A program made the position numbers and the translations under genes. A stretch of DNA of 64,000 nucleotides, taken from assembly GCA_964019135.1 (NCBI GenBank), contig OZ025248.1:14887574-14951573 (forward strand), given 5' to 3'. The stretch's first letter is position 1. Every line of letters begins with the position of its first letter. This DNA comes from Arenicola marina (Eukaryota; Annelida; Polychaeta; Arenicolidae). Below are positions 16,917 to 51,400 of the stretch, one piece after another. The notes below the pieces were generated by a model. It had not been told where the DNA came from. It ran no database searches and saw only the letters and a program-made list of their open reading frames with translations.

Positions 16917-17116
16917 NNNNNNNNNNNNNNNNNNNNNNNNNNNNNNNNNNNNNNNNNNNNNNNNNNNNNNNNNNNNNNNNNNNNNNNNNNNNNNNNNNNN
17001 NNNNNNNNNNNNNNNNNNNNNNNNNNNNNNNNNNNNNNNNNNNNNNNNNNNNNNNNNNNNNNNNNNNNNNNNNNNNNNNNNNNNNNNNNNNNNNNNNNNN
17101 NNNNNNNNNNNNNNNN
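16917..17116. other. Assembly gap (200 N)
   Basis: Exactly 200 undetermined bases. The round length suggests a placeholder of unknown true size. It interrupts the large minus-strand exon, so the 3' end of that gene cannot be read and the sequence left of the gap may not be contiguous with it. Confidence 0.98.
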
Positions 17117-28525: not shown

Positions 28526-28933
28526 AGTTGCATATCGAGCTCTTTCCCGCCAAAACTAAAGAGGTCAAAATACAAGAATATAACAATCAGTCCTTGATTC
28601 ATTCAAGATTTCTTTTGTCTATACTCCACGCATGCCTCACTGCCAAATGGTGTCTCTTAGCCTTGACCGTGATATCAAAGTTTTCATTTTAGTGGTAGGC
28701 TAAACGTCATTAGTTTGTGTGCTTCGCGATGCTTTGGTATAGAGTAGCAGTGCCGAGACAGAGTTTTGTGGTGTACCGGGATAGACAGTAGACACGTTTG
28801 CCACATCACAGCCGAAACGGCGATGTTTATCAGGTTTCTGAATTTATAGAATGAAACAATCGAATTTTCTGCAAATTTTGAGATAAATTTCGCCTGGGCT
28901 TAGTTTTGGCGGAAAAGAGCTCGATATGCAATA
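28526..28933. mobile_element. MITE, copy 1 (diverged)
   Basis: Left end AGTTGCATATCGAGC, right end CTCGATATGCA. The inner parts TTTCCCGCCAAAACTAAAG and TTAGTTTTGGCGGAAAAG form a long inverted repeat. The interior (ATCAGTCCTTGATTCATTC, TGTCTCTTAGCCTTG) is clearly homologous to the copy at 42395-42794. Target site no longer intact. Confidence 0.8.
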
Positions 28934-29485: not shown

Positions 29486-30412
29486 ATGAGTTTATCTAAA
29501 TTATTTGAGGCTTCTAAGAAGCTTCAAAGTAACAGAGGGAAGGTCGCAGGTGGCATAGCCCTCGCAGCTGTGGCTGCTTACGGATTGAATAAGGCCTTTC
29601 TCAGCAAGGCCAAGGGAAATCGTGAGAAAATCGATAAGAGAACTGTCAATGGCGAATTGGTGAAGCCTAAGGACCTTGTAGATGATGCAAAGAAACGCCC
29701 AACTATTGCAGTGAACAAGAAATTTCGGGAGCAGCTGAAGCGCCTTTTAAAAATCCTGATTCCTGGAATATGGAGCCGAGAGTTTGGTCTTCTCTTCCTG
29801 CACACACTATCTTTGATATCGAGGACATTCTTGTCAATTTATGTTGCACAGCTTGATGGAAGAATTGTCAAGTCCATTGTGAAAAAAGATGTAAAGGACT
29901 TCATCATGATGATATCTACATGGCTTGCTATTGCAGTACCTGCGACTTTTGTCAATAGCTTGATAAGATTTCTTGAAAGTCAGTTAGCTTTATGTCTGAG
30001 GACAAGGCTTGTTCAACATGCTTACAAACTCTATTTTGATGAACAAACTTATTACAGAGTCAGTAATTTGGATAGTAGATTAGCAAATGTAGATCAATGT
30101 CTAACAGAAGATATCACAATGTTTACTTCATCGCTGGCACATCTGTATTCACATTTAACAAAGCCTGTATTGGACATTGCGTTAATCTCCTTCACGTTAT
30201 ATAGTCAAGCCCACAGCCATGGTGCAAGTTCGCGAATGCCTACCATTCTTGCACTTGTTGTCATCCTTGTCACTGCCAAGACATTAAGGGCAGTTTCTCC
30301 AAAATTTGGAAAACTTGTCGCTGAAGAAGCTCATCTCAAAGGATTTCTGAGATATGTTCATTCTCGGGTTATTACCAATGCAGAAGAGATTGCCTTTTAT
30401 GGAGGCCACAAG
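29486..30412 (+). CDS. ABCD1/2: ABCD exon 1 (transmembrane domain)
   Basis: Starts ATG at 29486; donor CACAAG|GTAAGG. It encodes the first 309 residues, including all the early membrane helices and the EAA-like loop. A very large first exon is also a feature of vertebrate ABCD1. Confidence 0.97.
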
Positions 30413-32386
30413 GTAAGGTTTAATTAAAAAAATATATGATTAAATACACTTTTTTTATAAAATTACAAGGTAATGATAAAGGCTTCTTAATGAATTAATT
30501 TAAGCAAGTTTTTTTATTTACAGTTAGATATATTTATATAGAAATGATCACATCTAACAATTATTTAAAGAAGATAATATTTGTTAAAATTAAAGTTAAT
30601 CATATAGCAATAATTTACCTCAACAACTTGAAACAAGTTTTGAATGGAAATGATGTACCGTAAACTGCCTATTAGAAGCCACATACATATTAGAAGCCGT
30701 ACCCCAACTTTGGCCTAAAAACCGGGTTGGCCGGCGCCCAGAACCATTTCCGGAAAACTACATATTATAAGCCACACCCCGACTTTGACCTTCCGACCTC
30801 CCCCCCCCCCCCCATGACCTGCCCTCCGCCCTGTATTCCTGCTTAATCCATCCGGCCAACCAAGCCACTTAATTGTTTATACAAGCAGTCGCGACCACTA
30901 ACAGCATTCACCTCTCCCTCTCCGATCGCACCTCTTATCAAGTGTCACACCAGTGGCTGGCTCTCCTGGACTTTACCAAACCAATTAATTGTTTATACAA
31001 GCAGTCGCGACTATTAACAACATTCAGCTCTCCATCTCAGATCGCTGCTCTTATCAAGTGTCACACCAGTGGCTGGCTCCTACTGCATGTTTATGAATCC
31101 GGCAGCTGTATCAAGTTACACAACCTGAAACCTGGCCTCTGATCGATTGGTCTACAATAGGTGTGGGGGGAGTCGCGTGGCAGTATAAATAAATAACACA
31201 ACCATAAGTAGCTCATTGTATGATTGATTGATTTGTATGACGTTATGATGCCATAAATTATTTTAGCAACATCGGTAATTTTCCCATTACTTGCCCCCCC
31301 CCCCCCCCTCCCCCGCTTGTCCTGCAGCGCTCACTTGAAATCGGCAAAAGGCCCTATTTAAAGCCGCACCCTGACTTCCGACTAAAACCCGGGAATTTGA
31401 CCCTCCAACTTCCTAATATAAGCCGCGGCTTCTAATAGGCAGTTTACGGTATTTAAGTTCTTTGTATAGAGGTACACATATGGTATTCAATAAACAGCAG
31501 AATATACATTACAATAAACTGCCTATTTGAAGGTGTAGCTTCTATTAAAAGTTGTGTGATGAACTGTCTTGGTTTTACCGCAAAGTTATGCTGCAGCTTT
31601 ATATACAACAAAAACTGCTGGTGTTGCCAAAATAATTGATTGTATCATAACATCATTGGTGTAACTTAATGCAGCTGATGTCCTCATACTCAGATACTAA
31701 CTACAATACATTACTCAGGTCAGACAGAAACTTGATACTGATAGGCATGACAGTGATTTATAAATATAATAGAGGTATATAGTTTTCCAGATATGGTTTT
31801 GGGTGCATGCCAACTTTTGAGGCCAAAGTCAGGTGGCGCTAATATGTATGCAGCTTCAAAAAGGCAGTTTACAGTATGTAATTATAAAAGTGAGAACAAA
31901 TTGGAATGTTACCTTTTATATGTTGAATGAAGAAGTTTTTTTTTATATTAATATTATGGTGGGAATTAATGCATTAAACATAATTACATGTAGTCTACTC
32001 CTTGTAGACTGCATTAGAGATCTGCTTTTTGGCTAACATGACCTGCTACAACTATCTATAACAACTGTCTTACACACCAGAATATCAGCTTTTTATGTTG
32101 TTAACCATATTCACTATGTGTCCCAGTCACATGTCTTTAATGAAAAGTGTCTTTATAATAGTTGACCTCATATATTGCCAGAAGGTTCACATTTACAAAT
32201 GGGAATCAACTATCCTAATGCCTATAACATGACACAGGATTGAAAGAAGTGTCTTTGGTACAGTTATTGACCTCAAGCAATTTCTGATCAGGTGATAGTG
32301 AGTCCATGTATACCTTGTACCTATAGAAATAGCTTCTTTGTTTGCCCTACTTCTGTTTCATCCTGGAACAAGCATAGACCTATTAT

Positions 32387-32422
<36 letters not shown>

Positions 32423-35400
32423 CTTCAATATGAGGCTTTATACAGTACATCAGAATCCACATGTAGGGCATTATCAACAAGGACCTTTAAACACCTTGTT
32501 TCATACATTGCACTAAGAATGAATTTTACCAATCAAGGTTTGTTTCTGGTAAATATGGAGCATAATAAAGCATGACTATCCATTATAGTAGTTTTGTGAT
32601 GATTGCTTTACCAATTGTCTAGTCCTAATTACATGAACTGCAATTTACAGCTGTTGCTGATGACAAGTGCACCTTGTATGTCTGTTAAGTAGTTCAAAGT
32701 ACCAGTGCGTCCTACTTACCTGTAATTTCTTTGAATAAGGTTAGACTTGTTTTGAGATGTGACCAGTCTTAAACTTCTTCTAGAAGATTCAAATGTAACT
32801 GGATGTAAATGAATCTAAGAAAGAATGGCTGCTGGATAATCCATGTGACTACCAATTGCAACATGTATTCAACAATCATGTTTCAAAAGTAAATCTATCA
32901 CAGTAGCTATTCTAATGAAAAGGTCATTAATATATCTGAATGCAATAAAAAAATGATACTACTTAAGTGCCTTGTTTACTGCATAGAGATGATTCTAATG
33001 ACCTATATATAGTATATGCTTGAATGACCCTGTGTCATAATACTGGTACCTATATGTTGCACTGCCTTGTTCTCTTAACCACCTTTGCAGTATCTGAAGT
33101 AGTGTACAACAGAACTGTAGTTATTATTTCACAAAAAGCCACTGTTGTCTGCACATATGAACCTTGCTCCAAAGACATGCACTTGTTTTGCTAAATTAAA
33201 CTTGCTTATTCTTTATTTGTAGGCGCTTTATTCTCCAGCACCAAACAGAAATTCTTTAAAGCAGAAGCCCACCACGCCATTGATTTCTGGGTTTCTTCCA
33301 TTGCTAATCCTTTCAGGTGGAACACAGCCTCCTCCAGCGCAGTTACAGGACATTGGCGGCCCAGATGAACCACATCTTCTGGAAGCGTCTGTGGTATGTT
33401 CAGCTGGAGCAGTTCCTCATGAAGTACGTTTGGAGTGCCAGCGGACTCATCATGGTAGCTGTGCCCATCATCTCAACACGAGCCAAGCAAGCTGATGGTC
33501 AGTTTACTGGTTCTCATTGCCAACATACCGGGTGACCCCCTTCATACCACATTGCCACACTTACCATCAGGTCCCCCCCCCCACTCCTAGGCTCCCTGTA
33601 TGCGGCTGATGTTACCCTTTGTAATAGCCATGAGGTTTGCCCCCCTCCTAGGCTCTCTGTATTAGGCTGATGTTACCCTTTGTAATAGCCATGAGGTTTG
33701 CCCCCCTCCTAGGCTCTCTGTATTAGGCTGATGTTACCCTTTGTAATAGCCATGAGGTTTGCCCCCCTCCTAGGCTCTCTGTATTAGGCTGATGTTACCC
33801 TTTGTAATAGCCATGAGGTTTGCCCCCCTCCTAGGCTCCCTGTATTAGGCTGATGTTACCCTTTGTAATAGCCTGTTATTTGCCTCCCTCCTAGGCTTCC
33901 TGTATAAGGCTGATGTTACCCTTTGTAATAATCATAAGGTTTGCCCCCCTCCTGAGCTTCCTTTGTAAGGCTGATGTTACCCTTTATAATAGCCATGAGG
34001 TTTGCCCCCCCTCCTGGGCACCCTGTATGAGGCTGATGTTACCCTTTATAATAGCCATGAGGTCTGCACCCCCCCCCCCTCCCCAGGCACCCTGTATGAG
34101 GCTGATGTTACCCTTTATAATAGCCATGAGGTTTGCCCCCTCCTAGGCTGCCTTTGTAAGGCTGATGTTACCCCATTGTAATAGCCGTGATGTTTGCCCC
34201 CCCCCCCTCCCACCTCCTAGGCTCCCTGTATGAGGCTGATGTTGCCCTTTATAATGGCCATGAGGTTTGCCCTTCAGGCTCTCCGTACGATGATGATGTG
34301 AGTGACAGGACCGAGGCCTTCACCACCGCCAGAAACCTGCTCATCTCGGCAGCCGATGCCACCGAGAGGATGATGTCTTCATACAAAGAGGTCAGCGCAT
34401 CATTATAACGCGTGGTTTGATTGCAAACTCAATGCCAGCGCATCTGCTTGATTCTCGTGGTTGGTGTGCCGCCATTGCAAGAATGGGAAAAAGTGAAGAA
34501 TATAAATGAGTCATTGCCTGGCGTGTGAAGATTGTATGTTATCATAACTAGTCCTATTTTAGAGTAATGCAGCGTTGGTCTCGCTTCAACATGAAACCTG
34601 ATTTTGCTGTATAAAACCTAATAAAGAATTACGTAATTTAGCATTTTACATTGTAAAAGCAGAAGTCTTGCATCACGACACGTACCAGATTTACATTTAT
34701 CTAACCATGATTTCAGAAGGTCGTTTTATGAACAAGTCGTGCTTCATTAATTTTTCATAGACTGTTAAAAACTGTAATGTTGCCGGTAGGAGTACAGTGT
34801 CATTAATGATCAGTGGCGATTGTAACGCAGATTACGGAATTGGCTGGATACACATCTCGCGTGGACGAGATGTTGGAGGTGTTCAAGGACATGAAGGAGG
34901 GAAGGTACAAGCGTCACGTGGTCGTCACCAAGCAGTCCAAGCACCTCAAGATCGATGGACCCCTCGACATGCGAGGTTAGTGCACACGTTAATGTCTTCA
35001 AGCCATGGTACCTAGAGTGTCTATTTCTCTTTAAGTCCACCAAAGAACAAACCTATAAAGTGACGTTTACTTTACTGTTTTTGCTTACTGATTATTAATC
35101 TGCTGCAACGTCCTCTTTGCAATATTTGTGAACGAAAATTTCCCAATCTTAAGATTCAATCAGTGATTTAAATATAGCTTAGAAATGCTAATTCATGTTT
35201 TACATTGGATGTCTGCACGGTTTATAGCGCTACGTGTTTTTCTTGTTGGTTCCACTTGAAAATAGTAATAGATTACTTTGGGCTCTGACCCGTAATCTGG
35301 TATGTATTCTCGACGCTCACTGTTAATGTCCGGCAGGTGTGGTGGTGGACACTGAACACAATGTGGTCGTGGAGGACCTTCCCATCATCACCCCCAACGG

Positions 35401-38400
35401 GGACGTCGTCGTCTCCAGTCTCTCCTTCAAGGTAGTCACTGCAGTGTTTATCTCAGCTTTAAGCTATATATGGCGTGCAGATCGATACGGGTTTGCCCCT
35501 TGGCACCGGCATCTGGGCCATTGTTCTGTCATTCCCATTGCATACACGATTCGCTATTATACACCATCTTGGAAAAATCGAGACTGGCGCAAAGAGTTAT
35601 GGGAAATATTTTGGTGTTATCTTGACTTTTTCTATGGAGGTAAATACCATATTTCCACGTTATTGGCAAGGCATGTATAAAATTAATGAGCATAGCTAAC
35701 TTACATTCAGATTACGTAACTTTTCCGTTACATAGATGACACTATTTCATGTTTAGATGTTTACAAAGATGACGCCATCTTGACATGTCGCAAAGACCAA
35801 AATAATACCCAGAATGCATTGCACATGCAGTGGCGCCTCACGGTGGCACAATTGAAACTACGATTAGCGAAGTGGTCTATTGTCCTGTGAAGTTTCTGGA
35901 CCCGGTTTAGCATTCATGTTCACAGAAGCCGCGTAAAACACTGACATTTCTTTTCATTTCACTTTATAACAGTTTTCCTTATGGTGGATATTTTCCATCC
36001 ACCAGTGTAAATGAATGCTTTAAACAGGTCATAATTACTCTTTGCCTGTGGGATTAGGAGGCAGTAAATGGAGCTGTCGTGCTACTCTTTACAATGTAAA
36101 CTGAAAGGTAATCCCAGCTGTCAGCGGGGCGTAGCATATGGTATGACAATCAATATTTATCGAAATGTCTCGATTGTCGACAAGGGCCAACTTCTACTGG
36201 CCTACGATGTCACTGATAGTATATGTGCACGCTTTAGTTTGGCTAGTAAATGACCATGAGAGTTATGATAATCACAACGCGCTCACAAAACAAATCGATT
36301 TAATGCAAAGTAGTCTGGGCCCTAAGTTCATGTTAGTGGGCATTAGGCGATTGCTGGCATATACATGTATAATGGCCATCAGTTGAGTATGATAGGTGTG
36401 TAACGCGTGTTATTTTCCTGCCACCAGATGGAGCCAGGTATGCACCTCCTCATTACGGGTCCCAATGGCTGCGGCAAGAGCTCATTGTTCCGAATGCTGA
36501 GCGGGTTGTGGCCCGTCTTCAAGGGTCGTCTCTTCAAGCCTCCCCCCAGCAGCATGTACTACATCCCACAGCGGTAAGACAACACTCCACCCCCCCCCCC
36601 CCCCAGCAGCATGTACTACATCCCACAGCGGTAAGACAACACCCCCCCCCGTCAGCAGTCTGTACTACATCCCACAGCGGTAAGACACCACCCCCCCCTA
36701 GTACCATGTACTACATCCCACAGCGGTATGACTGAACATAACCCCCACCCCCAGCCCCGCCTCCAGCACCATGACTATATCAAAGGGGAACGTATCTTAC
36801 TGTTGCCATGGTTACAGGCCGTACATGTCGATTGGGACGCTGCGGGACCAGGTGATCTACCCGGACCTCCCCGAGGACATGGCCGAGAAAGGTCTCACCG
36901 ACGACGACCTGCTGAACGTCCTCCACATCGTCAACCTCAAGCACATCGTGACGAGAGAGGGAGGTACGAATGGTCCACGAATCGATGCGAACTTCACTTG
37001 CAGGATGGGTTTAAATCCATCCACTCTGAAAATAAATAAACAAACTCCGAGACTTGATCCCTCATTGGTTGTTCCTGCTAAGCGTATTATGGGGACCACC
37101 CGAATGAGTGCTGACACGGGTAGGTCTTGTCCTGGAATTCATGCTGCAGCGGCGGCTTGACGCCGTGCCTCATGGGACGCGACTGTAGCATGTTACGATT
37201 CATATACATGTATTTGAGCGTTCCATGCTCTGTGCTCTCGAAAAGTTCTTCAGTTTGATGATCAGTTAAAACGTGTCTTCCTTTATCCTTGTCATTCACT
37301 CCTTATGCCAATGACCAACTCGGTCTGTTTAGGATATCTTCGCTCAGTTTATGGAGAATCGCTGGATCGCTATATACCTTTCCGTGTCGGCAATCTGCAC
37401 AGCTCACTGATGCAGGTTGAGGGTTAATCTTTTATCTTAAACCCACATTTGGGCACATCGTTGGCAATCTGCACAGGCACAACCCGTATGCAGGTGTCAA
37501 AAAGCACGCACCTCCCATGATAGGAGTGCAGATACGTTTCCCCGCTAGCTGTACACTGTTGGACTCTTCCCCCCCCCCCCTTTATCTCTAGGCTGGGACG
37601 CTATGAGTGATTGGAAGGACGTGCTGTCCGGCGGAGAGAAGCAGAGGATGGGCATGGCCAGGATATTCTACCACAAGTACGGAAAACTAGGATTGCCATA
37701 AATTGTTCTCATTAAACGTTCATTAAATTATTATTGTACAGCTGATCAATGTGTTTTTCGAATGGGGGCGAAGTACTGATTTTGGCGACTGGTTTTTTCA
37801 AGAACACCTTATTTCACTTATGATTATGGCTAACGGTTCTTAAAGAATCTGTTATTTGTTATCTGTGAAGACGTATATCCTTTCCTATATATCCCGCATG
37901 ACAGGGAAAACATTTAAGTGCGTCTGAAGTTATCTTCATAAATTATCAATAAAATATGGATAAAAATATGCCTCGGTGGATATTGCTGTGAAGACCTGTA
38001 GTTTTGTGTGTGTATTGTTCGTGTGTTGTTTCCCACTCTATTCGTCACAGAATGTAACAGTGCAGTATTACTCCCCCCCCCCCCCCCACCCCCAGGGGCA
38101 AATAGTTTTGTTATTGAGTTGTGGTGTTTGTCCGCCAGGCCGAGGTACGCCCTGCTCGACGAGTGCACGAGCGCTGTCTCCATCGACGTGGAGAGTCAGA
38201 TTTACCAGACCGTGAAGGACTCAGGCATCACACTGCTCACCATCACACACAGGCCCTCCCTGTGGTAAGTACGTGACGTCACACATACACTGTGGTAAGT
38301 ACGTGACGTCACACACAGGCCCTCCCTGTGGTAAGTACGTGACGTCTCACACACCCTGTGCTAAGTACATAACGTCACACACCCTGTGCTAAGTATATGA

Positions 38401-39044
38401 CGCCACACAGACCCTCCTTGTGGTAAGTACATGACGTCACGCACAGGCCCTCTCTGTGGTAATGACATGACGTCACACACCTTGTGGTAAGTATATGATG
38501 TCACACAACCCTGTGGTAAAGCACATGACGTCACACAGACCCTCCCTGTGGTAAGTACATGACGTCACGCACAGACCCTCCCTGTGGTAAGTACATGACG
38601 TCACAGACCCTGTGGTAAGTACATGACGTCACAGACCCTGTGGTAATTACGTCTCACAGGATCATCCACCTACACGCGTATATACATCACCCACCTATTA
38701 TCGCTCTATCGCCGAGCACGGGCTGACGATGGGTCCGTGTCTCTTGCAGGAAGTTCCACACGCACCTGCTGCAGTTTGACGGCGAGGGCGGATGGCGCTT
38801 CGAGCAGCTCGACATGGGAACGAGGCTCTCCCTCAACGAGGAAAAACAGCGTCTCGAGGTGCAGCTGGCCGGCCTTCCCAAGATGCAACTCCGCCTACGC
38901 GAGCTCTGCAATGTCCTTGGGGAGGACTCTGTGCTGTTGAGTAAGATTGCCAAGGTGGAGGCTGCACCTGTTGATGAGGAAGAGTTGAGCAGCGGAGTGG
39001 ACGGGGAGGAGGAAGAAGAGGAGGAGGAGGAGGAGGAGAAGTAA
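29486..39044 (+). CDS. ABCD1/2: Peroxisomal ABC half-transporter, ABCD1/ABCD2 (ALDP) type, complete, ten exons
   Basis: Exons 29486-30412, 33317-33497, 34278-34390, 34831-34975, 35337-35431, 36428-36573, 36818-36963, 37592-37676, 38139-38264 and 38750-39044 give 752 residues; human ABCD1 has 745. Family knowledge: ABCD1/2 homodimers import very-long-chain acyl-CoA into peroxisomes for beta-oxidation. Seen in order: a basic N-terminus, the membrane domain ([32 protein letters not shown]), an EAA-like motif ([26 protein letters not shown]), Walker [10 protein letters not shown], signature [10 protein letters not shown], Walker [12 protein letters not shown]-loop ITHRPSLW, and a C-terminal region [13 protein letters not shown]. 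It ends in a Glu-rich tail not seen in the human protein. The start is the ATG in GGCAACATGA; no closer in-frame Met fits. It matches ABCD1/2 better than ABCD3 or ABCD4; a single pre-duplication orthologue is likely. An AATAAA lies at 39304-39309. Confidence 0.97.
30656..31451. mobile_element. Tc1/mariner-like MITE in ABCD intron 1
   Basis: Perfect 25-bp inverted termini read TACCGTAAACTGCCTATTAG followed by AAGCC; the outer TA at both ends fits a TA target duplication. The interior has C-runs and a 116-bp tandem duplication starting at 30871 and 30987 (AATTGTTTATACAAGCAGTC). No transposase. Confidence 0.85.
31508..31878. mobile_element. Second, diverged copy of the Tc1-like MITE
   Basis: Left end TACAATAAACTGCCTATTTG, right end AAAGGCAGTTTACAGTAT; these are inverted relative to each other and related to the 30656-31451 termini. 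The inside is shorter and AT-rich. Confidence 0.55.
31879..33316. other. Rest of ABCD intron 1, no feature seen
   Basis: AT-rich intron with one (AT)n microsatellite at about 32389-32419; otherwise nothing recognisable. Confidence 0.6.
33317..33497 (+). CDS. ABCD1/2: ABCD exon 2
   Basis: Acceptor AATCCTTTCAG, donor GATG|GTCAGT. It encodes [20 protein letters not shown] and [20 protein letters not shown], nearly the family consensus. Confidence 0.96.
33567..34277 (+). repeat. About 61-bp tandem array filling ABCD intron 2
   Basis: About eleven units, each like CCTCCTAGGCTCCCTGTATG followed by AGGCTGATGTTACCCTTTG and TAATAGCCATGAGGTTTGCC. The phase is set so that the last unit ends exactly at the exon 3 acceptor, and the TAG|GCTCCCTGTATGA portion matches the exon 3 border CAG|GCTCTCCGTACGA. 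Confidence 0.93.
34278..34390 (+). CDS. ABCD1/2: ABCD exon 3
   Basis: Acceptor TGCCCTTCAG, donor AAAGAG|GTCAGC. It encodes [20 protein letters not shown] followed by [10 protein letters not shown]. Its first about 22 nt resemble the tandem units filling the preceding intron. Confidence 0.95.
34831..34975 (+). CDS. ABCD1/2: ABCD exon 4
   Basis: Acceptor GTAACGCAG, donor CGAG|GTTAGT. It encodes [20 protein letters not shown] and a linker ([16 protein letters not shown]). Confidence 0.94.
35337..35431 (+). CDS. ABCD1/2: ABCD exon 5
   Basis: Acceptor GTCCGGCAG, donor TTCAAG|GTAGTC. It encodes [20 protein letters not shown] and [11 protein letters not shown], the entry to the nucleotide-binding domain. 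Confidence 0.94.
35432..36427. other. ABCD intron 5, no feature seen
   Basis: No exon or repeat was recognised; the small open frames lack motifs. Confidence 0.5.
36428..36573 (+). CDS. ABCD1/2: ABCD exon 6 (Walker A)
   Basis: Acceptor CTGCCACCAG, donor CAGCG|GTAAGA. It encodes [20 protein letters not shown] and SSMYYIPQR. The donor and the last about 25 nt of the exon are copied three more times in the intron; only the first donor keeps the frame with exon 7 directly. Confidence 0.96.
36545..36730 (+). repeat. Tandem copies of the exon 6 end plus donor
   Basis: Four copies of ATGTACTACATCCCACAGCG each directly followed by GTAAGA or GTATGA (donors at 36574, 36631, 36680 and 36726), separated by C-runs ending in AG in most cases. 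The first copy is the real exon end. Confidence 0.94.
36818..36963 (+). CDS. ABCD1/2: ABCD exon 7
   Basis: Acceptor TGGTTACAG, donor GGAG|GTACGA. It encodes [20 protein letters not shown] and the helical segment [19 protein letters not shown]. Confidence 0.95.
37592..37676 (+). CDS. ABCD1/2: ABCD exon 8 (ABC signature)
   Basis: Acceptor TTATCTCTAG after a C-run, donor CACAA|GTACGG. It encodes [20 protein letters not shown], the C-loop. Confidence 0.95.
38139..38264 (+). CDS. ABCD1/2: ABCD exon 9 (Walker B, H-loop)
   Basis: Acceptor GTCCGCCAG, donor CTGTG|GTAAGT. It encodes [20 protein letters not shown] and [11 protein letters not shown]. The junction is reiterated in the following intron. 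Confidence 0.95.
38250..38655 (+). repeat. Tandem copies of the exon 9 donor with TGACGTCA motifs
   Basis: About thirteen copies of CCCTGTG|GTAAGTACGTGAC or close variants, of irregular 28-37-bp period. Eight contain the perfect octamer TGACGTCA. The first copy is the real exon 9 donor. Confidence 0.93.
38750..39044 (+). CDS. ABCD1/2: ABCD exon 10 (C-terminus)
   Basis: Acceptor GTCTCTTGCAG, stop TAA at 39042-39044. It encodes [39 protein letters not shown] and a run of Glu before the stop that comes from a GAG/GAA microsatellite. Confidence 0.95.
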
Positions 39045-41680
39045 GGATGGAGGGAGATGGAGCGTGGTCCTGCGAAAGAGGAAGAGGTGGACGGAGCAGA
39101 TGAAGGAGAGGCGAAAGGAAAGTCATATCAAGGAAACACCGAATAGGGAAGAAGAGGAAGCGTGATTGGGAACAAAATGGCGACTGGGTGGAATAAGTGA
39201 ACTTACGGAAGTTGGCAAACATGGATGCTAAACATGTCAACGGATATGTGATGAGATGAAACGAGATTTGTTGGTGATTAAACTAATATCTGTATCAACT
39301 TTTAATAAAGTATAGATTCAGTGTAGCTCTAAATGTAGGACTATCTGTTGGGTATGATGAACGAGTTGATGAACAGTCCGAATGTAAGAACCTAGTTTCG
39401 ATGATTATCGCAAGTCTTTCAAGTGCAAAATCTGGCGCAAATTAAGCGGGTGTTGCATGAAAGCCTTGTGTCTGGTGTGCGAATAAAACTCTCAGTTAGT
39501 TCTTCATAAGTTCCGATATTCTGACTGCTTTATGTGGAGTTTTTGTACTGTTATGTTGTGTGGTGGAGCTGAGTGGTTTCGGTGAGACACATATTCTGTG
39601 TAATCACTGTTCTATGAAGCAAATGGGCAATAACGGTAGCCTACCGGAAGCAAGAAAGGCATCCGATTTGTGATACTTCGTTTATCCGTGCTTTTGTGTG
39701 TCTTCACGCCAATTACTGATGTTGTTCGCTGTATATTGTCGAGTATACTGAGGATTGTCTGACTGACCTTGAGGCGCCCGATCACAGGTGATATGATGAC
39801 AAACCAGTAGCTCGTATAGGCTGATGGTGGTTGATATTGTCCCGTACATATTAGTAGCTTCTAAGGAAAAGTTTCGTACGCATTATATAAGACGCGTAAC
39901 GTTAAAAAAAAAAAAGATAATTGTTTCTGATTCGTTATATTGAATGTTGTTTAAATGAGATTAAGTGTCTTTCATTGAATACCGGCCATCGCTGGTATCG
40001 CGCCCGATAAGGTGGTTGTTATGTTACCCAGATAATTGTTACAGGCTTTGAGATGTTGACTCTCTATAGATATATAGCTTGATCTTGGAGCCGTCCAATA
40101 AATGTTGAACAGGGACTCGGCATATCCGACTCAATGATATAAGCTAAAATATTATGTCATCTTAACTGTGACACGGCAATGCCCGTATCCTTGTTCTATT
40201 AATTTATTCATCTTAATGCAAGAATTATTAGCCACTGTGGTTGATTTCATTGTATTCTTTAGTCTATTTATATTTTGTTGTACGTCCAAAAAAGGGCATG
40301 AAGTATTTACTGAGAGAAATCAAGCTTAAATCGATTTAGTTTCGTATTCTATCAGCTTTACATGATACCATGCTTGTTGCGACGCCCATGTGGTTACATG
40401 TCCTTTTTTTTGTGATTCACGTGGCGTGCAATCGGTGTTATGCAGAACAGCTGAATGAGTTTATGGTGAATAACACGCCGAGTTCCTTTAGTATAATGTA
40501 TGCCTTGGGGAAAAATTAAAATCTGTGTTTTACAGATCTACTTAAACTATTACGCGACGCCCAATGTTTCTCATCTATTACTACTCTTGGTATGAATTGA
40601 GGTCACAGTTTTTCCTTTGCATTCTATGCCTTGTCTATGGTATGTTAATATATTTAAGTAGTAGATGATTGGCCTTGGCCTTAGTGTTATTTATTTTTAC
40701 AGCTGCCTTATGCAATTGCTCCTCGAATTTATATTGCATTGATTACTATTGTTAAACATCGTTTAGTTCACAGAGATGGCTCTGAACAGAATAACATGGG
40801 TTTACGGACCGATCAATCGGCCGTCTTCATTAGTATTAACAGTATTATTATAATTTTGTCCCGTAGCAATGACATCACCAGGTTTTAATGAGACAACAAT
40901 CAATCTAGTCAAAGGCACAAGTAAATGCAAATGGTGGTATTCATCCAAACGCCGGTCCCACATATACGGTTCCTCTATCTTTTGCATTCTGTTTGTATCT
41001 TTATTGTGATTTTTAAAAGTTTAGTATAGAATTTGTATTTGTTTACATGCGGAGATTTTAAATGCGCGATAATGATGTTGCCTTTCAAAAACTTGGTTCT
41101 CTATATGGGATTCCGTAAGATAGCGGTCAGTTACTACGGTATAAGAAAGAGGTAACGGTCGGTGGGGTATTAAAGAGAAATGCCAGTAGATGTAATATTG
41201 TGGAAATTCACTAATGTTGGTATCCACCCGCTGCCCTGGCTGTTAGTAAACATGCGCGTATCTTAGATTAAGGTACTCGGCTGAAGTATCTGGCTTCTTG
41301 CCTGGGGTGAGAATACCATCAGAGGGTTCATTGTATATCACCACGCAAGTCTCACTGGGGGTGACTAAGTACCTTGTTGCTGTGTGTCATAGTATATGTT
41401 CAGAAAACACACTATATCATATCAATCTATTGTAGAAATGTTATTTGTTTGGTCTTGCGTGGTTTCAAACTGAATGGTATGTGTCCGTGTTCTCTAGCTC
41501 AGTCTGGCGGCTTAAGTGTAGCTTTATCTTGTTTATAGAATCTGCCACGCGCCGTAAATACAAGAGATCGATTTAAACTTTTTTTTAACACGGCATAGTC
41601 TTTTTATGGATGTTTAGGGTTTCAGTATGGTATCTACTCTTTAGCAGGTGTTTTTGTTTATAATACATGTACCAGCTTAG
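39045..41680. other. ABCD 3' UTR and intergenic sequence
   Basis: AATAAA at 39304-39309 is the first good polyadenylation signal. The remaining sequence is AT-rich without recognised exons. Confidence 0.55.
39304..39309 (+). terminator. Polyadenylation signal of ABCD gene
   Basis: AATAAA about 260 nt after the stop codon. The cleavage site is not determined. Confidence 0.5.
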
Positions 41681-42196
41681 GTCAATTAAACTGGGGACCA
41701 GGAAAGTTAGGTTTCGGTCAAAATACTTAAAACGTTCTTACTTAACCCTCACTAGCCTGGAAGAGTAACCCCTTAAATGCTTAATTTGTCCTGGAGGTTG
41801 TAGTTGTTTCAGTAACTTGTCAGTACTTTGTTGACGGTGTGTATTTGGTTAGGTCAATTAAACTGGGGACCAGGAAAGTTAGGTTTCGGTCAAAATACTT
41901 AAAACGTTCTTACTTAACCCTCACTAGCCTGGAAGAGTAACCCCTTAAATGCTTAATTTGTCCTGGAGGTTGTAGTTGTTTCAGTAACTTGTCAGTACTT
42001 TGTTGACGGTGTGTATTTGGTTAGGTCAATTAAACTGGGGACCAGGAAAGTTAGGTTTCGGTCAAAATACTTAAAACGTTCTTACTTAACCCTCACTAGC
42101 CTGGAAGAGTAACCCCTTAAATGCTTAATTTGTCCTGGAGGTTGTAGTTGTTTCAGTAACTTGTCAGTACTTTGTTGACGATGTGTATTTGGTCCC
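41681..42196. repeat. 172-bp tandem repeat, three near-identical copies
   Basis: Copies start at 41681, 41853 and 42025 with GTCAATTAAACTGGGGACCA. Copies 1 and 2 look identical; copy 3 differs only near its end (GACGATGTG for GACGGTGTG). Non-coding. Confidence 0.97.
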
Positions 42197-42394
42197 TTGG
42201 TTCGTTCAATAAGCTGGTGCTGCATCACATTAACGTTCACAGGGCGTGTAGCATATGTAAGGTAACTATATAATTCGTCGGCAACTGTACGTTCATTCAG
42301 CGTGAGCGGATAACCCTAAATTACTTCAGTGTCCGAACAGATGTAACAGATTTTTTGTCTCATTACAGGCGGCAAACAATATATCGATCGTTAA

Positions 42395-42794
42395 AGTTGC
42401 ATGTCGAGCTTTTTCCCGCCAAAACTAAAGAGATCAAAATACAAATAAGAATCAGTCCATGAATCATTCAAGATTGGTTTTGTGTATACTCTACCCATGC
42501 CAGACTGCCAAATAGTGTCTCTTAGCCTTGCCCATGATATCAATTTACCACAAATTTTCCTTTCAGTGGTAAACGTCATCAGTTTGTGTGCTTCGCGATG
42601 CTTTGTTATAAGTAGCAGTGCCGCGACAGAGTGCTGTGGTGTCGCGGGAGAGACACGTTTGCCACACCACAGCCGAAACGGCGAGGTTTATCAGGTTTCT
42701 GAATTTATGGAATGGAACAATCGAGTTTTCTGGAAATTTTGATATAAATGTCGCATGGGCTCAGTTTTGGCGGGAAAGAACTCGACATGCAACT
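42395..42794. mobile_element. MITE, copy 2 with intact TTAA target site
   Basis: It is a 400-bp element with inverted ends AGTTGCATGTCGAGC and CTCGACATGCAACT, flanked on both sides by TTAA (42391-42394 and 42795-42798). TTAA duplication is the piggyBac-type target, although the terminal bases are not the canonical piggyBac CCC. Non-coding, so it must have been moved in trans. Confidence 0.85.
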
Positions 42795-43360
42795 TTAAAC
42801 TTCACGTACGGAGATGTAATTTAACTATGATCGTGATAATACAAAGAGCCAGACTAGCGCTTCACTAATGTTAGATCTTCGTTAGATGCAAATTACGGCT
42901 TATCTCAACGTTACTGGGTGATGCCGCGATACGCGTTTTGCAGCAATTATAAGTGCAGCAGCCAGCCATGTGCATTCAATTTGCCCCCTGACAATATTAG
43001 ATTTATTGAAAATCATGTTTGTATGTATTTATGATGAAAATTTCATCTGTCTTTCCTCTTCAGCCGTGCAAATAAAACTTAGTAATTTCCGGTAAAAGGA
43101 ACGATATTTTAGTGAAACGGCCCCCTGGTCTTCATGTCACGACTCAATGATCCAAATGGCGTTCTTTAATGGATGATAATTCATCATTGTTTTTTTCCCC
43201 TTCTTGACACGAGAAAGAGTTCTAAACGCAAACTGGAGCAGGTTATCTTGTGGTAATCCCACCACCATATACCACCCGCGACTACGCCCAGTAGCTGATA
43301 CGAACTGTGTCATCCATACGTTGTGATTTCTGTTGTAATGAAATAAAATCCTACCACTAC

Positions 43361-43512
43361 CGACGTCTTCAATGAGGTTGAACAACTTACCGACGTCTTC
43401 AGTGAGGTTGAACAACTTACCGACGTCTTCAATGAGGTTGAACAATTTACCGACGTCTTCACTGAGGTTGGACAACTTACCGACGTCTTCAGTGAGGTTG
43501 AACAACTTACCG
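43361..43512. repeat. 30-bp tandem repeat, five copies
   Basis: The unit CGACGTCTTCAATGAGGTTG plus AACAACTTAC repeats with exact 30-bp period. On the minus strand each unit junction reads CGGTAAGT, a strong splice-donor consensus, and the array is open as VGKLFNLTED decapeptides. Confidence 0.95.
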
Positions 43513-43689
43513 ACGCATCGGTTGAGCAATGCGAAGTGCTTACACCACGTGGATAGTCTAATCTGCCTTCTTCTGCTTTAATATTATGCAAACACCTGTG
43601 GTTTCCTTGTAACTTTGCATGTCGATGTTTATGGCATGGTGAAACTGGATAGATTACCGACCTGAACTACAAGATACAACATTCGAACA

Positions 43690-43830
43690 CAATAGAATAA
43701 TACTTCAATTTGTCTCCGCGGCCAAACGATGGAACAATTCACAGACTACCCTGACAATGCGTTTAAGAAACAAACTACAAGAGTTCAGTCTTCTCACCCA
43801 GGTTTTTTTTTTATTAATGACCAATAAACG
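43690..43830 (+). mobile_element. Possible LINE C-terminal fragment
   Basis: The plus strand can encode SAAKRWNNSQTTLTMRLRNK followed by LQEFSLLTQ, reminiscent of the AxxWNxLP...FKxxL segment that ends many LINE reverse-transcriptase proteins. It is very short, so tentative. Confidence 0.35.
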
Positions 43831-46800
43831 TACAAGAGAATAACTTTCTCGTTCCCCAGTTACAAGGCGTTAAAACGATTATGACGAACACTTATTGGGT
43901 CTCAAGCGCGTTGACGTCAAGTATTTGTATGCATGATCCTTCCCAGGATGCCTTGCAGTTAAAAAATGGCCCGGAACTTAACAAGTATTGTGACTGCCAC
44001 GTATCAAGCCATCAGCCCTGGATAAAAATGGTCCTTTTTTTACATACAACAAAACAATGATTACCATCTCATCTGGTTCTAACAACCTAAGACTCTTCAC
44101 AAAATTCTGGAGGGATAAGCAAACAAAATATAGATACGTTAATATGTGTAGGACATGCTCGCACGCGGTCGCATGCACCATGCCTACCGCGGGGTGGCGT
44201 CGCCAGCCCACGTGTGTCGCCATAGCAACCCACGTCCCCAAGACTAGCAAGAAACGTAACTGCACGAGTCAAAAAGGCTTTGTTTAAAATACACTCTGTA
44301 GCCACCTTTCCATCAACTACAAATGTACATTGGCTTCAAGCATTATCATTTAATTCGGAGAAAATATCGTGCTAATCGCCTGATGTCCACGCCGCCTACC
44401 GTGGCGACCTCTGGCGAATGAGAATGCCAAGGGAAACATACCTCTCAGTCTGGCTGCCAGCAGGTTTTAGCTTTCCTTCGACCACTAGAGATACTATGCG
44501 CAACGACGCCTAAATGTCAGCTGCGCCCTATTTACACCGTATATGCAATATCCTTTGCTTCCGACGCTACAAAATACGAACAGAGGTACAGCTATTTACA
44601 GGGCGTCCCCTCTGCCAGACAATAATTCTTTCAATCTCCGATCTCTACACGCAAAACTAGAGATCCACACCAGATGGGATTTTGTCACCAGATTGTTGTC
44701 TCTGTTGCTAAGACGCATACCACACTGATTGCAATACATGTAGGACATACACCAAACGGAGGACAGGAGCTAAAAGACCTGAATGGCTCTAGACCACTTA
44801 AGTGCACTTCATACTAAATGTCAGCATTACTATGTACAGGACACACACCCTCCCCATTCAGCACACATATCGGAGCCCTTGTCATCTTAGCACTAAACTG
44901 GTATTCGCAGCAGAAAAACTTTAATTAAAACAGTGACCAAGCTAAGACTTCGCAATGAATGTATATTATAGATATAGATATATATATACATTACTGGTTT
45001 TTCTTTAATATTGACGAGTAACTTGTACTAACAGTACACAAATACAATCATATTGAACCTTTATTCACATGATCTTCGGTTATTACACACCGATATATAA
45101 CACATTTCTTTCATGTACTTTCAGCTATTAATAAACTGCCTGTTGTTTACACCAGTAAACTAAAACTCAAAAAGTAACGATTTTCATTTAAGTCATATTT
45201 TCAAATTTAATATTGCATAATTTTGACTCCGCTCTCGAAAACTATTGCGATTAGAGAAATTTCAATAACAATAAAATGCCTGAAATATTTCAGACTCAAT
45301 TAATGGCGATTCCAATAATAAAATCCTATGCCAGATGCAAAATAGCCTGTATAACCATAACATTTGGTGTCAAGGGCATAGAAATAGCGTTAATTAACAT
45401 GTCATCGAATGTGCTAATATTAATGCAAAAATTAAAGCACTAGACAAATGCGGCAATGAGAGCTGAAATATGCTGTGAAAAATGCCCACACCCATCATAC
45501 GCATATACTCTTATACTGCCTCATATATATATACACACATTCTTATAGATCGCACGTACAACCTGTAGCACACCCTCACAATGTCGAATACACACATTCG
45601 TATACCTTAGCACACACACACACGCTTAACCATCCATATGGGTATCAGTCTACTCACACCTATGCACAACCGACCACACCATAAGCGCATAATAAACATA
45701 ATCTACTTTCAATGTTCGTTCTCGATAAGACTTTCGACGAGTAATACAAACGCTCTCAAAAGAGAAGGAAACCGTACTCTAAAATTGCAACCTCGGCAAG
45801 ACATACACAATACATTTATGTAATATCAAATCTCACTATAATTACTTCATCTTCCGAGAAAAGAGTGAGCGCCACCTGGTGGTCAAGTTCGAAAACCACG
45901 TGACGCTAGGGTGGAGGAGGAGTCATTCCTGCCGAGACTGTACGCGAAACCCGGGGAGGTGTACGTACATACGTACGGTCGTACACCCGACCCGGGATAA
46001 CCATATTCTTATCACAGAGAAACTTCTTGGGATTTGCGACATCAAGTTTTCCATCTTTAAGAGAAACTCCAATGTAAGGTGGACATGTTGTGCATCGTGA
46101 CGGGGTTGCAAGGTAATATGGCTCGGGACGATGCAATCAGAGCAAAGGCTGCGAGGGGAAGAGGAGGGCGGGGGGGGGGGGGTCCGGAGGGAGGCGCCCT
46201 GTGGGCCCGATACAATACAGAGGGAGGGGGGGGGGGAGGAGGTATGGAGAGAGACGCCCTGTGGGCCCAATACAATACAGAGGGGGACGGTTCAATGCTG
46301 GAAAGGTCTATGATATCAGAGCAATAATCGAAACGCCTACAAACTCGCTAGCATAACGCGGCCGTGTGAATAACTTTTCATCGTGTTAACGTTAACAACC
46401 TGCTTAAATAATGATTATTCGAGCTGAAGAGCGTTTACTCATATTTAAATTATCAATGAGGCTACATCTACGGAAGGAACTCGGCTAACGGTGTCTATGA
46501 ACCGCTGCTGACTCTACCCCAAGCAGGTCTCGTCCACACATGTCGTCGTAACAGCGCGGTGGCAGGGCGCTGGACAGCGCTATTGGCCAGACAAACCCAA
46601 GGCTCGGGCCGATAATGAACATGGCCGGTAGCATGACTCGCTCACTGGCTACCACTATTATGACGAGTAACAACCTGTGTACTCACGAGGCCCCACTCGC
46701 CATTGGCCCACCCTTGGCGACCGCGGTCAGGAGTGGCGGTGGGGTGCCGTCAGCTAAGCCGGGCCGCAGTAAGGGACAAGACAACGAGAGCCAAGCGATG

Positions 46801-47489
46801 GTTGTAGCGGCTGTTTGGCCCCAGCAATGTCAACGGTACAGACGTGACGAGTTGGCACTTTACACCCAAACCCGCCGAAAACGAAATTAAGATTTGGGAC
46901 TTCATCTCATGGCTTCGCAACATTGCAATTCACTATTGCTCTTCTACGTCATGGCAACACGTCCGACCTCTGACCTCTGACCTACTTCCCTGGGCGGGAT
47001 TCTGCGATACTATAAGGCGTGAATTCCTATCGAAGCGTTCAGCTTTCCCGTTAGTAAAAATACAGTCACATACATTTTGATATATATTACACGCGACACT
47101 ATACATTACCCTATAGGCAACCTACTTGCCCCGTGATCAGCATTCGCCGTGTAGCCCCCAAGCACACTGACTCCTGTACACGTACACACGGCCGCCGGAC
47201 GACGATACGCTAGTGTTAAGGCCACCAATTCACCATCCACATCGTCGTCGTGAGCCAGATATCCACACAGAAGTACTAAGTCGTTACGCGATACGCTATG
47301 TACACACTCGTTTAATTGACAGAAACGACCCAAAAAGATAATCACAGCTTTTCGTAGAATTGACATTCGAATCTATAGTCTCCAGGGTCATGTCACGTGA
47401 TTACTGGCAAGCACAGCGCTACCTGGCGGTTACTATGATAACAAAAGTCTTGTCTAACAAAAGACTGGCTCAAGGGTAGACAGCCGTCA

Positions 47490-47700
47490 TGTCACACACG
47501 CCACTGGTCAGTGTACGCCACTGATCGCGCCACTCGTCAGGGTACGCCACTGGTCAGTGTACGCCACTGGTTACTGTACGTCATAGGTCAGGGTACGCCA
47601 CTAGTCACACCACTGATCAGTGCACGCCACTGGTCACGATACGCCACTGTTCAGTGTACGCCAATGGTCAGTGTACGCCATTGGTAATGCGTAGCCAATG
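47490..47700. repeat. Short minisatellite, GTACGCCACTGGTCA-type unit
   Basis: About twelve degenerate units of about 17 bp around TACGCCACTGGTCAGTG. Confidence 0.8.
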
Positions 47701-47701
47701 A

Positions 47702-47830
47702 TACGCACCCCGTCGCTGCAATTTACACCCCGTCTCGGTCGCTGCAATGTACACCCCGTCTCGGTCGCTGCACTGTACACCCCGTCTCGGTCGCTGCAGT
47801 GTACACTTCATCTCGGTCGCTGCAATGTAA
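47702..47830. repeat. 26-bp minisatellite, about five units
   Basis: The unit CCCGTCTCGGTCGCTGCAAT plus GTACAC is repeated with single-base changes. Confidence 0.88.
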
Positions 47831-48224
47831 CCCAGTCCAGGACACCCTGTCACGCCATTCCATGTTCTACAACCAACAGTGAAGGTCAAATCGCCCAAGG
47901 TCACAACGGGGGCGTGTATAACTATACAACATGATGTCCACGTGATAAGACGCGTCGGCTCGGACTAGGCTATGGGAACAAATGCAGCAGTAAAGGAGCT
48001 GGTGAAGGTGATAACGTCTTCACCGCCATTCCGAGCCGATGGAGAGGGGTGGGGGAGGGGGCATGCGCGTCACGTGGTATATACAGTCGCGCCGGTGGGC
48101 CCTCCGCCGTCTGACCAGGGACGCCCAAGGACACAGGGTTAAGGTGACCGCCATTCCGGCAGTCTGTAATCCTGGGTCGGCAACGCGCGACGCTCGGTCC
48201 GTGGCTACATACAGCTACATGTCG

Positions 48225-48263
48225 GTCACTTCCGGTCACTTCCGGCCACTTCCGGTCACAGCG
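48225..48263. promoter_or_regulatory. Cluster of ETS-like ACTTCCGG sites
   Basis: Three CACTTCCGG octamers occur in about 35 bp just downstream of the nuclear-receptor stop codon. They may be a mini-repeat with no function. Confidence 0.25.
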
Positions 48264-48337
48264 GGCCGACAGCGTGTCGCTGTAGCCGGTATTGGGTACA
48301 CCGTGGCGCGCTCTATTTGATGAACGCCGGAGGTTTG

Positions 48338-48486
48338 TCACTGTCGGTCGTACACCTCCTTGTGGAGTTCCGGGAACATGTCATTCTTCATCTTGAATCC
48401 GTTGAGGGCGCGCGCGTGCTTCTCGCTGGCGTCCCACAACGCCGGGAAGAGGCTGATTCCCCGGATCAACATACTTTCATATGTGT
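48338..48486 (-). CDS. Nuclear receptor terminal exon (helices 10-12)
   Basis: Acceptor CCGTCTCGCAG, stop TGA at 48338-48340. It encodes DTYESMLIRGISLFPALWDA, HARALNGFKMKND and the activation helix MFPELHKEVYDRQ at the extreme C-terminus. Confidence 0.93.
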
Positions 48487-51400
48487 CTGCGAGACGGAAA
48501 ACAAGATTTCCCAGTAAATAACTGCAACAATTGCAATTTCATGCAGACGAAATAACTATGCTTTTTTTTCACAAATAATTGTTAAATTCTTTCATGAAGT
48601 AGCAGGTGAGTACTGAACACTGATAGTAGTGGTGTTGAGGTGACAATCGGACGCCAGCACGACGGCACATTGCCACAGCGGTGTGAGGCGTTCGCTCACC
48701 TGGTCGGTTCAGCCTCAGGTAGAAGTACAGAGCCTGGAGATACAAGCCTTGTAGCTTCTGGATCATCTTGCGGTTCTCAAGGTCGTGTCTCTCTGATCAA
48801 GGTCAAAGAAAGGTGCACAGTCAAAATACAGATTTCAATCAATTATCTACTTGCAGAAATGACTTGACTGGAATACGAATTGTTACAATCACATCCAGGC
48901 ACCGTTACTGCCAGGGACGTCAGAAATCGAGAGAGGGGGGGGGGGGGGTATGGCGGTCACGTGGTCACTCACCGGGATGCATGATCATCAGCGCCGTCAG
49001 GAGGCCAATCTCGTTGTCGTCGAAGGCGAGGTCCTGGAACCGGAAGGCGATGTCGAACTGGATCTCCAAGAACTCGCCGAGCGGCATGAACTTGACGGCC
49101 GGCCTGGAAGTGGCAGGCGAGGGCGGGTTAGGGGGGTGGTGGTGGGGCTGGTGGTGGTGGCCGGCCTGGAAGTGGCAGGCGAGGGCGGGTTAGGGGGGTG
49201 GTGGTGGGGCTGGTGGTGGTGGCCGGCCTGGAAGTGGCAGGCGAGGGCAGGTTAGGGAGGTGGTGGTTGGGCTGGTGGTGGTGGCCGGTCTGGAAGTGGC
49301 AGGCGAGGGCGGGTTAGGGGGGTGGTGGTGGGGCTGGTGGTGGTGGCCGGCCTGGAAGTGGCAGGCGAGGGCGGGTTAGGGGGCGTGGTGGGGCTGGGGG
49401 TGGTGGTGGTGGCCGGTCTGGAAGTGGCAGGCGAGGGCGGGTTAGGGGGGTGGTGGTGGGGCTGGTGGTGGTGGCCGGTCTGAAAGTGGCAAGCGAGGGC
49501 GGGTTAGGGGGCGTGGTGGGGCTGGGGGTGGTGGTGGTGGCCGGTCTGGAAGTGGCAGGCGAGGGCGGGTTAGGGGGCGTGGTTGGGCTGGGGGTGGTGG
49601 TGGTGGCCGGTCTGGAAGTGGCAGGCGAGGGCGGGTTAGGGGGCGTGGTTGGGCTGGGGGTGGTGGTGGTGGCCGGTCTGGAAGTGGGAGGCGAGGGCGG
49701 GTTAGGGGGGTGGTGGTGGGGCTGGTGGTGGTGGCCGGTCTGGAAGTGGAAGGCGAGGGCGGGTTAGGGGGCGTGGTTTGGCTGGGGGTGGTGGTGGTGA
49801 CCGGTCTGGAAGTGGCAGGCGAGGGCGGGTTAGGGGGCGTGGTTGGGCTGGGGGTGGTGGTGGTGGCCGGTCTGGAAGTGGCAGGCGAGGTCGGGTTAGG
49901 GGGCGTGGTTGGGCTGGGGGTGGTGGTGGTGGCCGGTCTGGAGGTGGCAGGCGAGGGCGGGTTAGGGGGCGTGGTTGGGCTGGGGGTGGTGGTGGTGGCC
50001 GGTCTGGAGGTGGCAGGCGAGGGCGGGTTAGGGGGCGTGGTTGGGCTGGGGGTGGTGGTGGTGGCCGGTCTGGAAGTGGCAGGCGAGGTCGGGTTAGGGG
50101 GCGTGGTTGGGCTGGGGGTGGTGGTGGTGGCCGGCCTGGAAGTGGCAGGCGAGGGCGGGTTAGGGGGCGTGGTTGGGCTGGGGGTGGTGGTGGTGGCCGG
50201 CCTGGAAGTGGCAGGCGAGGGCGGGTTAGGGGGCGTGGTGGGGCTGGGGGTGGTGGTGGTGGCCGGCCTGGAAGTGGCAGGCGAGGGCGGGTTAGGGGGC
50301 GTGGTGGGGTTGGGGGTGGTGGTGGTGGCCGGCCTGGAAGGGACAGGCAAGGGGGAGGCGGAGGGGGTAGGGGGTGGTGGTGATGGTGATGGTGGGGGTG
50401 GTGGTGGTGGCCGGTCTGGAATGGGAAGGCCAGGGGGGGTTAGGGGGGATGGTGGTGGGGGTGGGGGCCGGTCTGGAAGGGGCACACCAGGGCGGGTTCG
50501 GGCGGGGATGATGGTGAGGGTGGGGGTGGTGTTATTGGTGGCCGTGATGGTTGGGGTGGTGGTGGGGGCCGGTCTGGAAGGGGCACGCGAGGGCGGGTTA
50601 GGGGGAAGTGGTGGTGGAGGTGAGGGTGGTGGTAGTGGTGGTGGTAGGGGTGGTGGCGTTGGGGGTGGGGGTGATGGTGGGGGTGGTGGCGTGGGTGAGC
50701 GCCAGGCTTGGCGAATATGGATGAGCGTTGTGCAGCGGATCTCGCAGACGATAACATTTTAACCAGCGATTGGCAAGACTAGTTATTTCAAGCATTAAAC
50801 ATGCTTCGTTATTATTATTATTATTATAACGAAAACACAAGCTTCCCAGCGTGGCTTGGCACTATAGGACAAGCGCTGGCTGGGTGACTTACCTGGGCAC
50901 CTTGAATGACATGCAGGGGGTGTACATGCCCTCGTGGTCGAAGAGCGGTATGTAGCGGACCAACAGCACCTCGAAGGATCCCTGCTTGATGAGGCGGATC
51001 TGGTCCTCCTGGGGCAGCTCCGTGAAACCTGCGACACAGAGGTAAACACGTCTGGTGTAGGCAAACACGTCTGGTGTAGGCAAACACGTCTGGTGTAGGC
51101 AAACACGTCTGGTGTAGGCAAACACGTCTGGTGTAGGCAACCACGCCTGGTGTAGACAACCACGTCTGGTGTAGGCAAACACGTCTGGTATAGGCAAACA
51201 CGTCTGGTGTATGAAACACGTATCATGGCTTGGGGTGGACGTAGAGAGGAGCGGGTTCGTACCTGGTAGGAGCTTGCTGAACTTGACCACGCGGGTGATG
51301 GCGGGTACCATGCTGCCAACGAACTGCTGCCACATCTTGTCCGGATCCTTATTTGCCATCATCGCCTTCATGTCCATGCCCTGCAAAGACCGCGCACCTC

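Follow-up and report, generated by a model that had tools for sequence, protein, structure and literature searches.

We analysed a 64,000-nucleotide stretch of contig OZ025248.1 of the lugworm Arenicola marina (hereafter the window, which lies within an 867-Mb assembly), where minisatellite arrays run across exon–intron junctions in two genes. The first gene encodes an ABCD1/2-type peroxisomal ABC half-transporter; its ten spliced exons form a single open frame of 752 amino acids with every intron bounded by GT and AG, and this model bore out the intron numbering used in the original prediction, an earlier reading of the same stretch. The product contains the Pfam domains ABC_membrane_2 and ABC_tran, and phmmer matched it to chains of ABCD1 structures (which we take to be the human protein) with an E-value of about 1e-278 over 648 residues. 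The second gene encodes a nuclear receptor (NR) of the Rev-erb (NR1D) type, for which six exons were modelled, including the ligand-binding domain (Pfam Hormone_recep). These gave one open frame once one acceptor had been shifted by 2 bases, and the best PDB match of the ligand-binding domain among solved structures was Rev-erb alpha (E-value 2.7e-27). A further gene in the window, a sugar transporter, is SLC2A13-like by eye, and its joined exons gave no single open frame. The genes and arrays of main interest are as follows.

29486..39044, plus strand: ABCD1/2-type peroxisomal ABC half-transporter gene, 10 exons
33567..34299, plus strand: array of ~61-bp units over the acceptor of ABCD intron 2 (intron ends at 34277, exon 3 starts at 34278; Tandem Repeats Finder and in-register reading)
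36542..36732, plus strand: array of ~49-bp units over the donor of ABCD intron 6 (exon 6 ends at 36573, intron starts at 36574)
38243..38650, plus strand: array of mixed ~28–36-bp units over the donor of ABCD intron 9 (exon 9 ends at 38264, intron starts at 38265)
48338..54049 (part modelled), minus strand: nuclear receptor gene, Rev-erb (NR1D) type, six exons modelled
49097..50620, minus strand: array of ~62–66-bp units over the modelled NR intron 3 acceptor (first exon base after the real junction, 49103)

At each of these four borders the junction lies inside the repeat unit, and the observation is confirmed. In-register reading and alignment agreed with the original prediction that the tandem units contain the junction together with adjoining exon bases at four borders in two genes, and a gapped alignment test was positive for precisely these four arrays among the 28 ABCD and NR junctions. 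The units are arranged head to tail and, at ~28–66 bp, are of minisatellite size (~10–100 bp). Two acceptors and two donors are affected, such that both types of exon boundary are represented and decoy sites of both polarities are produced, again as had been proposed.

Within the arrays, decoys that retain AG or GT mostly score similarly to the real sites, using splice-site matrices of human-type position frequencies rather than a trained model. In ABCD intron 2, 11 decoy acceptors (33591 to 34221) precede the real one at 34278; nine of the 11 keep their AG and score 7.7–10.5, with the real acceptor at 8.6, and the unit overlaps the exon by 22 bases, of which 16–17 matched in the three units tested. 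Past the real donor of intron 6 at 36574 (score 7.8) lie three decoy donors at 36631, 36680 and 36726 (7.8, 7.8 and 4.8), each unit overlapping the exon by about 35 bases with 30–34 of the 35 matching. The array of intron 9 holds 12 decoy donors between 38295 and 38643, ten with GT kept; seven of the ten score 9.4, the same as the real site, and three score 4.1–5.3. Here the exon overlap reaches up to 22 bases, and among seven units tested five matched over 19–22 bases and two over 5 and 7. For NR intron 3 we counted 22 decoy acceptors (7.3–11.1; real acceptor 8.4), 19 of them in an unbroken run at 62–66-base spacing to 50333 with no copy missing, followed by three less regular ones to 50573; the figure of about 19 given earlier therefore describes the even run correctly and falls three short of the total. 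As the decoys of intron 6, intron 9 and the NR were located by patterns requiring a splice-like GT or AG motif, copies that have lost it wholly could be missed, and the intron 6 and NR counts cannot gauge motif loss.

The exon overlap at NR intron 3 is only 7 bases (6–7 matching in four units tested), the weakest of the four arrays, so that exon similarity reaching beyond a few bases holds for the three ABCD introns but not for this one. None of 20000 shuffled exons attained the in-register similarity seen at intron 2, intron 6 and the five long intron 9 units, whilst 48–69 of 20000 did so for NR intron 3, and 584 and 125 of 20000 for the two short intron 9 units. Two of the copied exon ends can be compared with ABCD1: at intron 6 the window gene reads MYYIPQRPYM and ABCD1 MFYIPQRPYM (common core YIPQR), and at intron 9 THRPSLW is identical in both, the longer ABCD1 counterpart, THRPSLWKYHTHLLQ, being paired with a 15-residue stretch of the window gene. 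Since these peptides are shared with ABCD1, the exon predates the array at both sites and served as its source; the copied exon end at intron 2 sits in a gapped stretch of the ABCD1 alignment. In tandem arrays, the usual pattern of turnover leaves interior copies more alike than the most distal ones. In this one assembly, the four copies at the distal edge of NR intron 3 had a mean copy identity of 0.67–0.79 versus 0.84–0.90 elsewhere (0.86 at the junction edge), a divergence that was partly visible in intron 2 and not evident in intron 9.

The recurrence of this structure had been taken as a sign of a junction-directed mechanism, and four of the ten arrays counted in modelled window introns do indeed cross a junction. 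Recurrence itself was borne out, as 14 of 106 testable junctions of myosin exons elsewhere in the genome were also positive. In a random-seeding model, however, in which a single duplication of one unit length arises at a random place in an intron set to its size before expansion and subsequently grows, 2.6–3.0 crossings were expected for the ten arrays against the four observed (probability of at least four, 0.22–0.35), and 2.5–2.9 for the seven strong arrays (probability 0.19–0.32). These figures are based on ten of 13 array rows, the 2-bp and 3-bp rows being omitted and a 101-bp row merged into NR intron 3, with array lengths entered by hand and partly extending beyond the Tandem Repeats Finder ends.

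A wider comparison was made with a span test, a gapped alignment for a junction-spanning copy at a score threshold of 36 (a short-word test had missed ABCD intron 2 and NR intron 3). The sample comprised 180 junctions, 178 of them testable at the junction, and represents a small part of the genome dominated by the myosin family, for which 57 of 77 matches were usable and 20 had no fetched stretch; the sugar-transporter junctions were kept in the count despite the unjoined frame, their exon ends being one base off. A junction-spanning copy was present at 18 of the 178 junctions (10.1%), made up of 3/18 in ABCD, 1/11 in the NR and the 14 in myosins, with none at 17 sugar-transporter, 16 Adh3 and 10 kinesin junctions. 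By comparison, 19.3% of interior positions in the same introns were positive, giving a junction/intron ratio of 0.52 (0.33–0.72, bootstrap over 24 gene groups). The offset profile fell from 5/179 at 30 bases inside the exon to 2/179 at 60 and 1/179 at 90, and on the intron side stood at 28/178 at +40 and at 31–37 of 170–178 at each offset from +80 to +400. Introns shuffled in two-base blocks yielded no span-test hit in 456. With the myosins left out, 4/72 junctions were positive versus 9–11 of 70–72 positions at three intron offsets. A first run on 155 junctions (50 myosin matches) had given 18/155 and a ratio of 0.56 (0.36–0.77), similar at three other thresholds, and the seven myosin matches added afterwards contributed zero further hits.

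Thus, in this sample rather than the whole genome, the frequency with which arrays overlap junctions does not exceed expectation, the very outcome named beforehand as speaking against a special mechanism. That the splice junction itself promotes duplication, be it by slippage or repair at its motifs, R-loops or co-transcriptional pausing, is consequently unlikely, even though the structure recurs in other genes; in a variant of this idea, a junction-promoted birth rate may be masked by stronger selection. Junctions are crossed no more often than positions elsewhere in the introns and the inside of exons hardly ever, a profile that would be expected from random growth combined with selection against exon damage. 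Separated by type, acceptors were depleted (5/86; ratio to intron 0.30, 0.12–0.50) and donors showed no clear depletion (13/92; 0.74, 0.40–1.11), although the direct contrast between the two was not significant (Fisher p 0.083). Protection of acceptors would be sensible if an additional AG upstream, close to a usable branch site, does more harm than an extra donor downstream.

When the myosin hits were inspected singly, most copies were found to carry bases coding for conserved-looking myosin sequence. One counted acceptor hit (C1:64332097) has only 6 exon-side bases and has lost the AG in the copy, a counted donor hit (C12:10161763) scores 41, two candidates with scores of 15 and 12 fell under the threshold, and an acceptor hit at C1:64337547 was left uncounted because it lies too near the end of the fetched stretch. 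In several myosin genes (L045, L046, L049, L053 and L055) the junction-spanning copy is identical at 56 of 56 bases, which suggests very recent or ongoing expansion. Several myosin exon matches (G000:C7:32812561 and others) also lie within open frames of at least 1000 amino acids, longer than would be expected for an exon, and these frames possibly run through intron arrays. The share of sequence in tandem repeats with a period of at least 7 was 45.4% for the 16 stretches fetched around myosin genes and 18.7% for the window.

We also computed, from sequence, model transcripts for use of the decoys. A premature stop followed for the eight farther of the nine AG-keeping decoys of ABCD intron 2, for ten secondary AG sites within the units of that intron, for all three intron 6 donors, for all ten GT-keeping intron 9 donors and for all 22 NR decoys. 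These outcomes bear on the proposal that the decoy ladders are functional, whether by tuning splicing, by feeding transcripts to decay or, at intron 6, by supplying in-frame micro-exons of 24 nucleotides that repeat the peptide YYIPQR, presumably the Q-loop of the ATPase. Each of the three intron 6 units does indeed present, in frame, an AG followed by 24 coding bases and a GT, and inclusion of any single one would preserve the frame. The exonic C-run within 36542–36573, which codes for three prolines upstream of the intron 6 donor, corresponds to the pyrimidine tract preceding each copy, so that each copy resembles a complete micro-exon. Moreover, AG or GT is retained in most decoys of the arrays. 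Nevertheless, we consider a function of this kind improbable: most decoy use gives a premature stop, the first micro-exon would require an upstream intron of 33 nucleotides, GT is lost in two of 12 copies at intron 9 and AG in two of 11 at intron 2, and motifs would be kept without selection in copies common by descent. In amphioxus, furthermore, reverse transcription PCR of comparable genes suggested regular splicing, according to the available part of PMC3087553. An assembly artefact, with repeats collapsed or wrongly expanded, is more improbable still: assemblies are known to be unreliable in the copy number of repeats, which may still be wrong here, but the copies differ from one another in fixed ways, both gene frames are intact and the same structure occurs at other, unlinked genes.

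It is therefore probable, in our view, that the arrays are ‘mirage’ minisatellites, that is, arrays that were started by chance across junctions, have grown into the intron, have been shaped by selection and are functionless, with the exon-proximal site still in use. Each would begin as a chance tandem duplication over a stretch that happens to include a splice junction, and slippage or unequal exchange would then expand it into the intron. Selection would eliminate arrays reaching far into exons, as well as many of those crossing acceptors. The exon-proximal copy of the junction would remain the used splice site, and most use of the decoys would yield a premature stop and a product that is destroyed or wasted, the arrays having no function of their own.

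Several points weigh against this account. We infer use of the real junction from the open frame, from the similarity of the protein and from the amphioxus case, and the near-equal scores of decoys and real sites mean that sequence alone does not explain why the decoys would be ignored. Two decoys stand apart: the nearest one in ABCD intron 2 (34221) adds 57 nucleotides and keeps the frame, and the first in intron 9 leads to a stop just 29 nucleotides ahead of the last junction, a position at which decay may fail to operate. In the wider sample, the hits are unevenly spread among genes, with most in myosins, and the junctions of myosins and kinesins were estimated, the former from the edges of profile matches and a splice matrix, such that some may be wrong; among the 114 myosin edges six had no junction scoring at least 3, and among the 12 kinesin edges two.

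Junction-including minisatellites have precedents in lancelets. As far as the available text of PMC3087553 goes, they occur in the amphioxus globin genes BflGb6 and BflGb9, with copy number differing between haplotypes, and take their name from work on Adh3 (Canestro 2002); the accessible part of PMC3902484 adds PGBD5 as a further amphioxus case and cites troponin C. The arrays described here resemble these in that the units include the exon–intron boundary, at acceptor or donor, and in that AG or GT is retained by many copies and lost by others (retained in 9/11 in intron 2, 10/12 in intron 9). They differ in the annelid host, in the occurrence of four junctions in one window, in the control on junction frequency and in Adh3: we looked for this gene, the classical mirage case, to serve as a positive control, and it carried no array in this genome. 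Amongst annelids, PMC12783039 (in the part available) reports minisatellites in intron 1 of earthworm metallothionein genes and duplications of the fourth exon in one clone, which is akin to the present case in host, intronic location and repeat turnover; unlike here, the earthworm arrays lie within the intron, and no junction is described in that part as belonging to the unit. The available text of PMC3087553 also sets out a model of intron gain via tandem duplication of AG/GT sites, in which copied splice signals could in time create introns or exons, as the tandem copies here could; the four junctions in the window, however, lie in genes with intact frames, and no new intron is shown. Among the open-licence papers searched, we recognised none that reports junction-spanning arrays in an annelid or across a whole genome.

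The mitochondrial contig of the assembly (C762, assumed to be from the same animal) has all its protein genes on the same strand, ordered cox1, cox2, atp8, cox3, nad6, cob, atp6, nad5, nad4L, nad4, (rrnS, rrnL), nad1, nad3, nad2, with cox2 and atp8 named by eye and the two rRNA genes placed by gaps between tRNAs. This order shows all four annelid features given in the available part of PMC2639372, namely nad6/cob after cox3, atp6 between cob and nad5, nad5 and nad4L/nad4 interchanged, and nad3 between nad1 and nad2. Of the ten proteins checked, cox3, cob, atp6, nad5, nad4, nad1, nad3 and nad4L were above the Pfam cut-off, nad6 fell below it (E-value 8.7e-05) and nad2 matched an antiporter family only. 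ARAGORN found tRNAs with the invertebrate code (two extra minus-strand calls were taken as false) and none on the mitochondrial piece with the bacterial code.

Other arrays in the window stop short of a junction, and three of these served for comparison.

51040..51221, minus strand: 19-bp array in NR intron 2, junction excluded, ending 11 bases short of the acceptor
51401..52193, minus strand: 84-bp array in NR intron 1, junction excluded, ending 20 bases short of the acceptor
11834..12823, plus strand: 21-bp array in a sugar-transporter intron, donor excluded, ~34 bases from the donor

NR introns 1 and 2 consist mostly of minisatellite. Elsewhere in the window, a 1498-amino-acid open frame on the minus strand (16802–21295, containing a 200-N gap) passes through 27-, 36- and 57-bp arrays, so that some minisatellites here sit within a long reading frame; three 172-bp tandem copies with 99% matches (41677–42193), apparently very recent, lie downstream of the ABCD gene, and similar stretches at about 28530–28930 and 42380–42800, with apparent inverted ends, resemble by eye copies of a short transposable element.

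With these findings, mirages, known before from lancelets, are seen in an annelid as well, and the internal control suggests that no special mechanism at junctions is needed: a minisatellite-rich genome gives such arrays by chance and selection shapes the remainder. If upheld in a larger sample, the difference between donors and acceptors would indicate that decoy donors on the intron side are tolerated, and decoys upstream of an acceptor less so. We tentatively propose, as a view that may well not hold, that about one in ten of the sampled junctions is overlapped by a minisatellite, extra downstream donors being almost neutral and extra upstream acceptors being removed by selection. If true, the genome would constitute a natural experiment on how the spliceosome chooses among near-identical neighbouring sites, and it would steadily supply candidate micro-exons that preserve the frame, of which ABCD intron 6 holds three.

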